NCBI RefSeq assembly: GCF_002072105.2
Contig: NZ_MTBC01000010.1
Location: 1 to 64,000 of the forward strand
DNA: 64,000 nucleotides
Source: Croceivirga radicis
GTDB lineage: Bacteria; Bacteroidota; Bacteroidia; Flavobacteriales; Flavobacteriaceae
Reading direction: 5' to 3'
Shown here: positions 37,869-41,356 of the stretch, piece by piece
Position numbering within the stretch: the first letter of the stretch is position 1
Layout: each line of letters starts with the position of its first letter
The notes under the pieces: model-generated
What the model was told of the DNA's origin: nothing
The model's database searches: none
What the model saw: the letters and a program-made list of their open reading frames with translations, nothing else
Program-made: the position numbers and the translations under genes

Positions 37869-38321
37869 ATGATGAGGAAGTTAAGAACATTTTTAGTGGC
37901 GTTTCTTGTTACAGGAACAATGGTATTTGCACAACCCAGACATAAAGATGGGAATAAAGAGAAGCGAAACAACTATACGCCAGAACAAATTGCCACTTTA
38001 CAAACAAAACGGTTAACCCTAGCGCTAGACCTTTCAGATAAACAGGCCGAACAGTTTATGAGTTTGCATTTAGAACATGCAAAACTTAGGGAGAAACAGC
38101 ATACTTTACGCAAGTCTAGAGAGGAAGAAGACAGAACAAAGCTAACTGAAGAGGAGCGTTATGCTATGCAAAATGCTAGACTAGACCAGAGAATAGCTTT
38201 TCAAAAAGAAGTTAAAAAAATACTCTCTGAAGAACAGTTTGAAAACTGGAAAAAAATTAGAAGGCATCACGGCAGTAAAAGGCATAAGATGTTGAGAGAA
38301 GGTGAACGGCACAGTAGATAA
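37869..38321 (+). CDS. Spy/CpxP-like periplasmic protein
   Basis: A 150-residue protein with a signal peptide (ending TMVFAQ). The mature part is basic and helical: YTPEQIATLQTKRLTLALDL, SDKQAEQFMSLHLEHAK, and a C-terminal ILSEEQFENWKKIRR. The paired 'T-P-E-Q-x-A-x-L-Q-T-x-x-L' and 'L-S-x-E-Q-x-x-x-W' helices are those of Spy/CpxP-type (LTXXQ-like) proteins in Bacteroidota. Such proteins act as periplasmic chaperones or as sensors that hold back stress signalling. Ends in a clear terminator. Confidence 0.7.
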   Translation: MMRKLRTFLVAFLVTGTMVFAQPRHKDGNKEKRNNYTPEQIATLQTKRLTLALDLSDKQAEQFMSLHLEHAKLREKQHTLRKSREEEDRTKLTEEERYAMQNARLDQRIAFQKEVKKILSEEQFENWKKIRRHHGSKRHKMLREGERHSR

Positions 38322-38344: not shown

Positions 38345-38386
38345 ATCCCTTGTATTTTTAAGTAAATACAAGGGATTTTCTTTTTT
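38345..38386 (+). terminator. Terminator after the Spy-like gene
   Basis: Stem of 13 bp, ATCCCTTGTATTT / AAATACAAGGGAT (38345-38357, 38364-38376), then TTTTCTTTTTT. Confidence 0.85.
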
Positions 38387-38408: not shown

Positions 38409-38485
38409 TTTCGCTTTTTTAAGCGATATATTTATTATTCGTTTATTTAAACGATATGTAAAAATATCGGATATTTATACGATAT
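38409..38485. promoter_or_regulatory. Three palindromic iterons upstream of satD
   Basis: Three near-identical 21-bp units end at 38429, 38457 and 38485. Each begins TTCG/TATCGG-like and ends with CGATAT; the CGATAT copies start at 38424, 38452 and 38480, exactly 28 bp apart. The first two are inverted repeats, TCGCTT-4-AAGCGA (38411-38426) and CGTTTA-2-TAAACG (38440-38453). The last unit ends 7 bases before the satD ATG at 38493. This looks like a multi-site operator, probably for the HTH domain of SatD itself. Confidence 0.65.
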
Positions 38486-38492
38486 TTACCGT

Positions 38493-39116
38493 ATGAATAA
38501 TCACGTAGCAATTTTAACAGGAGATATTATCAATTCTAGATCTATAGCAACACAAGATTGGTTAACCCAATTAAAAGCTATCCTAAATCTATACGGCGAT
38601 ACCCCAAAGCAATGGGAAATTTATCGAGGAGACAGTTTTCAATTAGAAGTTACACCAGTAAAGGCACTAGAAACTGCAATATTAATTAAAGCTGCCCTTA
38701 AACAACATAAAAACCTAGATGTTAGAATTTCAATAGGAATTGGGCCAAAGGAATATAATGCAGAAAAAATTACGGAATCTAACGGTGTTGCCTTTATTCG
38801 TTCAGGAGAGGCTTTCCATGAAATGAAAAAACAAACTTTGGTAATTAATACAGCCCAACCAAAACTAAATGAAACGCTTAATTTAATGCTAAAACTTGGC
38901 CTTTTGACTATGGATAATTGGCAACCTGCAACTGCGCAGACAGTTATGGTGGCGCTGACGAACCCCTTAGCACAACAAAAAGATTTAGCCAAACAATTGG
39001 GAAAATCACAAAGTACGATAAGCGAGGCCCTATTACGGGCCGGATTTGATGAAATAAGTCAATTACTGGCGTATTATGCAAAAAACATAACAAACAATGA
39101 TACTTTTACTACTTAA
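38493..39116 (+). CDS. SatD family protein with C-terminal HTH
   Basis: A 207-residue protein recognised as SatD family. The N-terminal 140 residues include HVAILTGDIINSRSI, WEIYRGDSFQLEV, VRISIGIGPKEYN and ESNGVAFIRSGEAFHEM. The 'TGD' and 'RGDSFQ' motifs with 'SIGIG' look like the palm fold of GGDEF or class III nucleotide cyclases (inference). The C-terminus (about 155-205) is a helix-turn-helix: QQKDLAKQLGKSQSTISEAL. Three palindromic repeats sit right before the start, which suggests self-regulation. The gene overlaps the DUF3307 gene by 20 bases, so the two are co-translated. Biochemical role not known to me. Confidence 0.82.
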   Translation: MNNHVAILTGDIINSRSIATQDWLTQLKAILNLYGDTPKQWEIYRGDSFQLEVTPVKALETAILIKAALKQHKNLDVRISIGIGPKEYNAEKITESNGVAFIRSGEAFHEMKKQTLVINTAQPKLNETLNLMLKLGLLTMDNWQPATAQTVMVALTNPLAQQKDLAKQLGKSQSTISEALLRAGFDEISQLLAYYAKNITNNDTFTT

Positions 39117-39837
39117 GCTTTTAGCTGCTCATTTTATAGGAGATTTTGTTTTACAGCCCAAGAAATGGGTTGTTCATAAAGAAAAACACAAAGTCAAATC
39201 CAAATATTTGTATGCACATATTGGCGTACATGCGATGTTATTGTTGCTGTTTTTGGGTTTTAAACACACTTGGACAGTGGTTTTTATTGGTGTAACACAT
39301 TTTCTCATAGACTGGGGAAAACTTGCGTTCAGTACGCCAAAAAACAGTCGTGTACTATTTCTTGTAGATCAATTAGCACACCTCTTAATACTAATTCTAG
39401 CTTACTACATTATAGAACCATTTTCTATATCCTGGTCCAATTATTTTGATGTACAATTTTACCTATTGTTATTGTTCATAGTCCTTGCCACTTTTGTTTC
39501 TGCAATACTTATTAAAATGTTTCTTACGCCCTATATAAATCTATTAAACTTGGATGAAGGCAAAACAGACCAATCTACAGAAGGAGAACCACTACCCAAT
39601 GCTGGGCTGTATATTGGAATCTTGGAAAGGTTGTTTGTTTTTGGATTTATTATTGCCAATCAATGGGCAGCAATTGGGTTATTAATCGCGGCTAAATCTG
39701 TCTTCAGATTTGGAGACTTGAACAAAGGAAATAATAGAAAACTTACAGAATACGTTCTCATAGGAACACTACTGAGTTTTGGCTTGGCTATTCTGTGTGG
39801 CCTAGGGTACACTTATCTTATAGTCCAATTGTCCTAA
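39097..39837 (+). CDS. DUF3307 integral membrane protein
   Basis: A 246-residue inner-membrane protein. The N-terminus (LLKLLAAHFIGDFVLQPKKW, then HIGVHAMLLLLF and GVTHFLIDWGKL) is the DUF3307 domain with conserved H, D and Q residues in or near the helices. About five to six membrane helices in all; the C-terminal half is a second hydrophobic part (LYIGILERLFVFGFIIANQW, AAKSVFRFGDL). It overlaps satD by 20 bases, a tight link that I know from other Bacteroidota. The pairing of a possible nucleotide-binding DNA-binding protein with this membrane protein suggests a signalling unit. A weak hairpin follows at 39887-39913. Confidence 0.85.
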   Translation: MILLLLKLLAAHFIGDFVLQPKKWVVHKEKHKVKSKYLYAHIGVHAMLLLLFLGFKHTWTVVFIGVTHFLIDWGKLAFSTPKNSRVLFLVDQLAHLLILILAYYIIEPFSISWSNYFDVQFYLLLLFIVLATFVSAILIKMFLTPYINLLNLDEGKTDQSTEGEPLPNAGLYIGILERLFVFGFIIANQWAAIGLLIAAKSVFRFGDLNKGNNRKLTEYVLIGTLLSFGLAILCGLGYTYLIVQLS

Positions 39838-39940: not shown

Positions 39941-40057
39941 TAATTTGCAGCGTGTTAACATTAACCACAAATTATTCTGGTAGCACAATTGGGGGTACTA
40001 CCTTAATAAACTTAAACACAAACGCAAAAGCCTGCTATAAGCAGGCTTTTCTTTTTT
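39941..40057 (+). ncRNA. Possible small RNA in the gap after DUF3307
   Basis: A gap of 238 bases. An AATTAATTTGCAGCG stretch (39939-39953) looks like a Bacteroidota promoter with one mismatch, followed by about 100 bases with a hairpin (GGTAG 39979-39983 / CTACC 39998-40002) and a strong terminator at 40026-40057. DUF3307 already has a possible weak terminator at 39887-39913. No open frame fits. It could also be only the long 3' end of the DUF3307 transcript. Confidence 0.3.
40026..40057 (+). terminator. Strong plus-strand terminator before the hemL 3' end
   Basis: Stem AAAAGCCTGC / GCAGGCTTTT with a 5-base loop TATAA and the tail CTTTTTT. The stem is almost symmetrical in A/T flanks, so it can also stop the minus-strand hemL transcript. 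Confidence 0.85.
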
Positions 40058-40075
40058 ATGGTATCCGGGGTTTTC

Positions 40076-41356
40076 TTAAAGTTTGCATTTTTCTACCGCC
40101 TCTATAGTCTTATCCAAGTCTTGATAAGAAATAGCATCATTTAAAAAATAACTTTCAAATGCCGAGGGTGGCAAATAGACTCCTTGGTCTAACAAGCCAT
40201 GAAAATAGGCTTTAAAACGGTCGTTATTACCTAACGCGGAAGAAGCAAAATCCGTTACCGGTTGGTCGCAAAAATGAACCGAAATCATACTGCCAAATCT
40301 ATTTATTTGGTGAGTAATCCCACGTTTTGTCAATACAGATTCAATTCCTTTATGAAGGTATTCCGTTTTTGCTGCTAAACTGGTAAACACTTCTGGTTTC
40401 TCATCTATTTCTGTAAGCATAGCCAAACCAGCACTCATAGCCAATGGGTTACCGCTTAACGTACCTGCCTGGTAAACAGGACCTTCTGGAGCCAAATGAG
40501 CCATAATTTCTGCTCGTGCAGCAAAAGCACCTACGGGCAAGCCACCACCAATAACTTTACCGAACATAACAATATCTGCATCTATCCCCAAGGCTTCTTG
40601 GGCACCACCAGCGGCCAACCTAAAACCGGTCATTACCTCATCAAACAACAATAAAATACCTTCTTGGGTACACAGTTCACGTAAACCGTGGATAAAATCG
40701 TCCTTAGGAATTATACATCCCATATTACCAGCAACTGGCTCTAAAATTATAGCAGCAATTTCGCCTTTGTTAGCTGCTACCAACTGTTTTACTCCTGCCA
40801 AATCGTTATAATTGGCCAACAAGGTATCTTTTGCGGTTCCTTGGGTAACACCAGGACTGTTTGGACTTCCAAAGGTTACCGCTCCACTACCCGCTTGTAT
40901 TAAAAACGAATCTGAGTGACCATGATAGCACCCAGCAAATTTTATGATTTTATCCCTACCAGTATATCCTCTAGCCAAGCGTACCGCACTCATACATGCC
41001 TCTGTACCAGAATTAACAAAACGTATCTTGTCTATGTTGGGCACCATTTTCACCGCTAATTGTGCCAATTTGGTTTCTATTTCTGTAGGAATACCAAAAG
41101 AGGTTCCTTTCTTAGCTTTTTCTATTACCGCATTCAGCACAGGTGCATAGGCGTGGCCAAACAATAAAGGACCCCATGAGGCAATATAATCAATGTACTC
41201 ATTGTCATCTTCATCTGTTAAATAAGCTCCTTTGGCATGTTTTATAAAAATAGGTTCCCCGCCCACTGCTTTAAAAGCTCTCACAGGTGAGTTTACACCG
41301 CCTGGAATGTATTTTTTTGCTTCGGTAAATAATGCACTGCTTCTTTGGTAACGCAT
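40076..41356 (-). CDS. hemL: Glutamate-1-semialdehyde 2,1-aminomutase
   Basis: A 426-residue PLP enzyme that turns glutamate-1-semialdehyde into 5-aminolevulinate, the first committed step to heme by the C5 route. The N-terminus [26 protein letters not shown] is typical, as are [32 protein letters not shown] and the PLP lysine in [14 protein letters not shown] (Lys267). Length matches the family. Last gene of a four-gene minus-strand operon, 17 bases after the glucosaminidase gene. Cytoplasmic. Confidence 0.97.

Follow-up and report, generated by a model that had tools for sequence, protein, structure and literature searches.

Transcriptional regulators of the PucR/CdaR type, such as MabR, combine a GGDEF-like domain with a helix-turn-helix (HTH) domain (PMC11617747), and in MerR and other families the residues of the recognition helix correlate with the letters of the operator (Prot-DNA-Korr, PMC5045206). 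The SatD family (PF16264) has the layout GD...GDxFQ...HTH. The searchable papers describe neither an operator array nor a recognition code for this family, and a literature search on SatD and DUF3307 found nothing functional.

Here, a satD-DUF3307 gene pair is analysed in a stretch of 64,000 nucleotides from Croceivirga radicis (the window). The SatD protein has the layout of PF16264, and its orthologues at ∼50% identity exceed the curated cut-off of that family over their full length. Like the PucR/CdaR regulators, SatD is a putative transcription factor in which an all-helical HTH part comes after a palm or GGDEF-like domain; it differs from them in its short length, in retaining both metal-binding aspartates, and in being coupled to a membrane partner and a private operator array. 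The palm finds its best fold and sequence match among the class III nucleotidyl cyclases (Ma1120; PycC of the Pycsar system), with the metal Asp pair aligned, whereas the Asn-x3-Arg pair of these enzymes is missing and an HTH is present. With the diguanylate cyclases SatD shares the palm topology, but a hairpin reading RGD[S/E]FQ stands at the position of the GG(D/E)EF signature. The evidence that relates helix and operator is of the same kind as in the MerR family; SatD differs in that an individual array stands at the promoter of nearly every copy, and each genome therefore supplies a matched helix/operator pair without reconstruction of a regulon. The co-diverging helix-operator code and the mobile distribution described below are new relative to a first-pass annotation of the locus.

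Organization of the satD-DUF3307 locus

In the window, a terminator-like hairpin consisting of a 13-bp perfect stem and a T-rich run (38345–38376, forward strand), found by an inverted-repeat search and in the sequence, ends the preceding gene, and satD therefore most likely has its own promoter. The putative promoter region is filled by an array of three operators. Operator 1 (38409–38428) is composed of the half-sites TTTCGC (38409–38414) and GCGATA (38423–38428), operator 2 (38437–38456) of ATTCGT (38437–38442) and ACGATA (38451–38456), and operator 3 (38465–38484) of TATCGG (38465–38470) and ACGATA (38479–38484). All three were identified from the sequence, a repeat search and the comparison of loci. 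The repeat units are 19–22 bp long and end in CGATAT. The first-pass annotation had placed the CGATAT copies at 38424, 38452 and 38480, 28 bp apart, with the last one ending at 38485, 7 bases 5′ of the satD ATG at 38493, and had reported an overlap of 20 bases between the two genes; all of these coordinates are confirmed. Its view of the first two units as the clear inverted repeats does not hold in the same way: the repeats are real, but copy 3 is the sole exact palindrome (TATCG-N10-CGATA), and the left arms of copies 1 and 2 deviate from it (TTTCG and ATTCG). An assignment of the repeats as iterons of a plasmid replication origin was rejected, as the array lies at a chromosomal promoter and is unique to satD.

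The satD gene (38493–39116, forward strand; assigned from its open reading frame, AlphaFold and Foldseek) encodes a SatD-like putative autoregulator of 207 residues. The overlapping downstream gene (39097–39837, forward strand) encodes a DUF3307 membrane protein of 246 residues (Pfam PF11750, E = 3.6e-27; alignment and AlphaFold). Upstream of satD lies a gene for a small secreted protein (37869–38321) with weak similarity to the DUF4890/LTXXQ/heavy-metal-resistance group, relatives of which were found close to satD in 17 of the 80 named loci. Downstream, a terminator-like inverted repeat, AAAGCCTGCTATAAGCAGGCTTTTC (40027–40060), separates the DUF3307 gene from a convergent gene for a hemL-like class III aminotransferase (40076–41356).

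Predicted structure of SatD

The AlphaFold model of SatD (pLDDT 94.6) contains two domains, a palm of β-α-β-β-α-β topology (approximately residues 1–120) and an all-helical part with a C-terminal HTH (approximately residues 145–200). The closest structure in the PDB according to Foldseek is the class III adenylyl cyclase Ma1120 (4wp9; E = 1.7e-4, TM-score 0.54 by target, for the predicted model). Further top folds include GGDEF domains, Cas10/Csm1, GTP cyclohydrolase III and the Pycsar-type cUMP synthase 7r65 (PycC-type), and the PucR-like structure 3onq is found among the weak matches. The cyclase/GGDEF-like palm with an HTH, as proposed in the first-pass annotation, is thus supported by the predicted model and its fold matches.

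In a profile alignment of the N-terminal domain, D11 (codon 38523–38525, forward strand) and D47 (codon 38631–38633, forward strand, in RGDSFQ) coincide with the metal-binding motifs FTDI and QGDGF of Ma1120, at an E-value of 0.014 that is weak by itself; D11 falls in the FTDIEES segment of the cyclase. In the sampled Bacteroidota, Gammaproteobacteria and Alphaproteobacteria the residues D11, S15, G46, D47, Q50, R78, A100 and G105 are invariant, and the alignments show D11 to be invariant in the Bacteroidota and in the plasmid and prophage homologues alike. A palm with a metal site, in which D11 and D47 are the putative first and second metal-binding aspartates, can be predicted with good confidence, and the conservation of this site argues for a working nucleotide site. 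In the alignments the transition-state pair Asn-x3-Arg is absent, the matching segment reading G-x-A-xxx-SG without a conserved Asn/Arg pair, and RGDSFQ or RGDEFQ takes the place of the GG(D/E)EF motif. SatD therefore belongs neither to the standard class III cyclases nor to the diguanylate cyclases.

The name SatD, given to the protein in the first-pass annotation, is justified only indirectly. PF16264 does not match the window protein at E ≤ 1, whereas orthologues exceed the Pfam cut-off in 23 of 120 family genomes, mostly at the orthologous satD locus and over the full length. Pfam, NCBIfam and PADLOC yield only weak HTH matches for the protein, and GGDEF_2 and HTH_30 are not among its Pfam matches at E ≤ 1.

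Operator arrays upstream of satD

A search with the window SatD against 300 genomes of its family (Flavobacteriaceae) gave matches in 163, and 149 loci were read in detail. Dyad autocorrelation over the 250 bp upstream of satD in these 149 loci gave 205, 129, 86 and 58 dyad pairs at lags of 14, 28, 42 and 56 bp, as compared with 3.2, 2.2, 1.9 and 1.1 in shuffled sequence. The half-sites thus alternate in direction every 14 bp, and full palindromes recur every 28 bp. A dyad pair at 28 or 29 bp is present upstream of satD in 39 of 69 family loci, as against 0–2 of 69–73 in each of four control windows from the same loci, and among the named loci the count is 53 of 77 upstream and 0 of 77 in the control window. 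This comparison between loci is the strongest indication that the repeats are no product of chance. With a site finder anchored on TAT, three palindromes were counted in 73 loci, four in 51 and five in 15, separated by intervals of 28 bp (329 cases), 29 bp (47) and 27 bp (11). In many loci a promoter box of the Bacteroidota type, TAnnTTTG, keeps a fixed phase of +8/−20/−48 from the site centres; it begins 8 bp to the right of a centre, so that its TA belongs to the right half-site. The promoter of satD in the window contains no perfect copy of this box. Three repeats (84 bp) correspond, at 10.5 bp per turn, to eight helical turns, which would suit three dimers arranged in a regular screw, although this is arithmetic and not evidence.

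According to the first-pass annotation, a lack of conserved repeats upstream of other satD genes would refute control by the array. The comparison of upstream regions shows that the repeats do recur; what is kept, however, is the architecture and the spacing, and not the letters of the half-sites. Several distant Bacteroidota homologues (e.g. L279 and L280) have no evident array. In the C. radicis genome the pattern CGATA-N23-CGATA occurs twice in forward and three times in reverse orientation, as compared with 2 and 6 for a reversed control pattern, and satD is the only place where these matches form a triplet with palindromes. No second array of this kind was found in the C. radicis genome or in genome G125, and no wider SatD regulon was seen in C. 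radicis at the sensitivity used.

Covariation of operator letters and recognition helix

The half-sites conform to the consensus A/T-A/T-TAT-N1N2N3, in which the letters of TAT are each retained in 92–97%, in part because the site finder rewards TAT, whereas 23 different N1N2N3 trinucleotides occur in the set, including CGT, CTG, TAG, AAG, TCC, CAC, ATG and TAC. These letters are private: the form of TAT-N1N2N3 differs from genome to genome and matches the recognition helix of the SatD encoded there. In the window this helix comprises residues 173–183, QSTISEALLRA (39009–39041, forward strand; assigned from the covariation and the AlphaFold model). CGT half-sites accompany helices beginning QSTISE or QNTVSE, CTG half-sites QSNISE, TAG and AAG half-sites QGNISQ or QSAVSQ, TCC half-sites QDAVSK, CAC half-sites QNAVS[S/T], ATG half-sites QSN[I/V]S[T/A/Y], and TAC half-sites QATASR or QSNISK.

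Among the columns of the SatD alignment, column 178 ranks first for N1, N2 and N3 alike, which identifies residue 178 (codon 39024–39026, forward strand) as the main candidate specificity position. Glu178 goes with N1 = C in 29 of 30 cases, Gln178 with N2 = A in 57 of 58, and Lys178 with N2 = C in 21 of 25. Contacts of Glu with C, of Gln with A, and of Lys with the G opposite are those expected on chemical grounds.

Kinship was controlled in four ways, by strata of N-terminal identity, leave-out prediction, an independent-pair test, and comparison with other Bacteroidota families. When stratified by N-terminal identity, the effect of column 178 is 1.45 mismatches, as compared with a mean of 0.03 and a standard deviation of 0.2 over 166 columns, and it thus lies ∼7 standard deviations above the column mean after control for relatedness. 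At every kinship level below 85% identity, proteins with the same residues at positions 174, 175 and 178 have an identical trinucleotide in 48–69% of pairs and those with different residues in 3–16%; for pairs at 30–40% identity the values are 64% and 7%. With relatives at ≥50% identity left out, a predictor that uses only the helix gives all three letters correctly in a fraction of 0.43, against 0.10 for the nearest allowed relative. An independent-pair sign test on well-supported branches gave 4.4 changes in the same and 0.1 in the opposite direction, its six pairs being too few for significance. In other Bacteroidota families (Reichenbachiella, Lacihabitans, Agaribacillus and others) Glu178 goes with N1 = C in nine of nine cases, and in the eight of these proteins that bear N, S or T at position 175, N2 is T with Asn175 and G with Ser175 or Thr175.

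These observations provide strong evidence, at the level of sequence, for binding of SatD to the array beside its own gene, since the half-site letters follow the recognition helix of the same genome. This covariation lends strong support to the earlier proposal that SatD uses the repeats to control its own operon. As each copy contains both the reader (the helix) and the text (the operators), the recognition code can be read from hundreds of genomes without experiments. The matched pairs include loci that are apparently in the middle of a change: upstream of satD in L067 and L068 the arrays are mixed, with distal CTG-type and proximal TAG-type repeats and a helix of the TAG type, and they possibly represent operator sets in transition between specificities. 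In Gammaproteobacteria, half-sites of the types TTAGCC, GTAACC and TCAACC accompany Lys-bearing helices. A cross-phylum rule from Lys178 to CC is suggestive only, the register being shifted by one base, and is not claimed.

The DUF3307 partner

The alignment of DUF3307 proteins shows an N-terminal domain with the conserved motifs HxxGDFxxQ, HxxxH, HxxxDxxK and DQxxH, and a strongly conserved C-terminal membrane domain with the motifs LERLFxF, AAKSxFRFxDL and TEYxLIGTLLSF. The AlphaFold model is all-helical and has no fold match in the PDB, the best E-value being 1.3. In 147 of 149 loci the DUF3307 gene adjoins satD, mostly with an overlap of 4 or 7 bp; beside the satD of L039/L334 no DUF3307 gene was detected. 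DUF3307 is present in 93 of 150 family genomes, 85 of which also have this satD. Among the remaining eight genomes, a divergent SatD-like gene stands immediately upstream of DUF3307 in seven, in several cases with palindromes of its own, and the eighth has a short, stand-alone DUF3307. The pairing is therefore close to obligate. Beyond the pair itself no conserved neighbours were found except through close kinship, and no defence genes recur in the Bacteroidota flanks. The analysis makes one defined unit of two previously nameless families and gives it a testable mechanism.

Plasmid and prophage-like copies

Homologues on plasmids were found in Vibrio, Salinivibrio, Pseudoalteromonas, Enterobacter, Sphingomonas, Pseudomonas, Klebsiella and Escherichia coli and, within the Bacteroidota, in Segatella, and DUF3307 adjoins satD in all of the records that were read at the gene level. 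Upstream of satD, palindromes at a spacing of 28 or 29 bp are seen in Vibrio lentus, Salinivibrio, Pseudoalteromonas and Enterobacter, as well as in the IMG/VR contigs L314, L316 and L317, as assessed partly by eye; a strict dyad test is positive for L311, L314 and L317. The half-sites of these non-Bacteroidota arrays again differ between copies. The Sphingomonas plasmid copy L312 has no evident array.

The E. coli plasmid pEC34A (L323, NC_019077.1; 3770 bp) encodes Rop, MobA and one small hypothetical protein besides satD-DUF3307, and on Klebsiella plasmids of 3.8–4.4 kb the pair is the main cargo; on pEC34A and the small Klebsiella plasmids, palindromes of the TCAACC/GGTTGA type lie upstream of satD. 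On two unrelated plasmids, from Sphingomonas (L319) and Enterobacter (L321), a complete Gabija system is located upstream of satD-DUF3307, and the former also carries Pycsar and a ThsB-like TIR protein. The IMG/VR copies are found near terminase, integrase, virion or replication genes, on prophage-like contigs. The non-Bacteroidota loci are a handful, a small sample. No copies of satD-DUF3307 were found in recorded phages, and PADLOC, which has no model for either protein, gave no match for DUF3307.

Proposed mode of action and biological role

Most likely, satD-DUF3307 is an autoregulated, mobile regulator/effector pair with the membrane protein as its output. SatD dimers would attach through the C-terminal HTH to the palindromes spaced 28 bp apart at the promoter of their own gene, where the variable letters of each TAT-N1N2N3 half-site would be read by residues 174 and 175 and most of all by residue 178. 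Binding would repress the satD-DUF3307 operon; repression is the most likely outcome because the operators overlap the promoter, and on the basis of this position it is a simpler reading than activation. The N-terminal palm is probably a site at which a nucleotide is bound or converted; this would lift or adjust the repression and in this way determine how much DUF3307 membrane protein is made. Direct binding by SatD, repression, a nucleotide ligand and a membrane output are thus what we infer, and to the whole proposal of a nucleotide-tuned, one-component autoregulator we assign a probability of roughly 0.75. As the array was found at satD alone in each of the two genomes examined, the regulator appears to act on its own operon only, and freedom from the constraint of a regulon would explain the joint drift of operator and helix. 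That another regulator binds the repeats, with satD merely as its target, is very improbable: the letters track residues 174, 175 and 178 of the adjacent SatD and not other columns, also across clades and families, and in both genomes the array stands at satD and nowhere else.

What the autoregulated pair does for its host can be read in several ways. In streptococci the name satD stands for 'secretion and acid tolerance', which suggests a housekeeping unit of the envelope, in which SatD would sense a nucleotide and adjust a membrane enzyme or transporter, DUF3307, as part of normal adaptation to stress. The single-copy, chromosomal occurrence in about half of the family genomes fits such a role, and the conserved His/Asp pattern of DUF3307 could bind a metal, but the Salinivibrio copies have lost some of the metal-type residues, DUF3307 has no fold match in the PDB, and the carriage on plasmids and prophages outside the Bacteroidota also tells against this role; the housekeeping role is plausible, though we would not give it even odds. 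By analogy with Pycsar, the pair may instead be a mobile anti-phage or conflict module, in which SatD, as a synthase or sensor of a nucleotide signal, keeps its own operon down and DUF3307 acts as the membrane effector. The predicted palm with both metal aspartates and the PycC-type synthase among its fold matches point in this direction, as do the carriage on plasmids and prophage-like contigs, the proximity to integrase and terminase genes, the adjacency to Gabija and, in one case, to Pycsar and the TIR protein, the near-sole cargo status on the 3.8-kb E. coli and Klebsiella plasmids, and the patchy distribution (163 of 300 genomes). Against it stand the missing Asn/Arg catalytic motif, the lack of PADLOC models and of copies in recorded phages, the Bacteroidota flanks devoid of recurring defence genes, and the small number of non-Bacteroidota loci seen. 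This anti-phage or conflict role is held tentatively.

An addiction pair of the toxin-antitoxin kind, with SatD as an autorepressing, possibly enzymatic antitoxin and DUF3307 as the membrane toxin, appears rather unlikely. The regulator-first operon with overlapping ends and an operator array at the promoter, the residence on small plasmids and prophages, and the virtual absence of full-length DUF3307 without a SatD-like gene agree with it, and an autoregulating first gene in an obligate pair is indeed what the sequences suggest; however, one satD copy (L039/L334) lacks a detectable partner, and DUF3307 is a large polytopic protein rich in invariant polar residues, which sets it apart from typical membrane toxins, which are small. 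A broader version, also possible but speculative, would be a so far unrecognised mobile conflict module for defence or addiction, in which a cyclase-like signal handler is its own repressor, a polytopic membrane protein the effector, and lineage-diversified operators insulate resident from incoming copies, as in prophage immunity. Since the pair occurs on 3.8-kb E. coli and Klebsiella plasmids and next to Gabija and Pycsar, a role in defence or addiction can be tested directly in laboratory strains of E. coli.

Related satD genes

The C. radicis genome contains a second, bona fide PF16264 gene (G000:C15:38103–38609, reverse strand; loci L071/L151), which is its sole match to this family. It is preceded by three TTTCC-N7-GGAAA palindromes 29 bp apart, ending ∼3 bp before the ATG, and is followed by a gene for a small membrane protein that resembles the C-terminal half of the DUF3307 protein (hhalign probability only 20%). 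In a divergent SatD subfamily (L326–L332), encoded directly upstream of DUF3307, (I/L)IKGDY(L/I/V)EC replaces RGDSFQ, and several members have palindromes spaced near 28–30 bp. The satD copies of genomes G246, G138 and G173 contain in-frame stop codons and are likely to be decaying copies or assembly errors.
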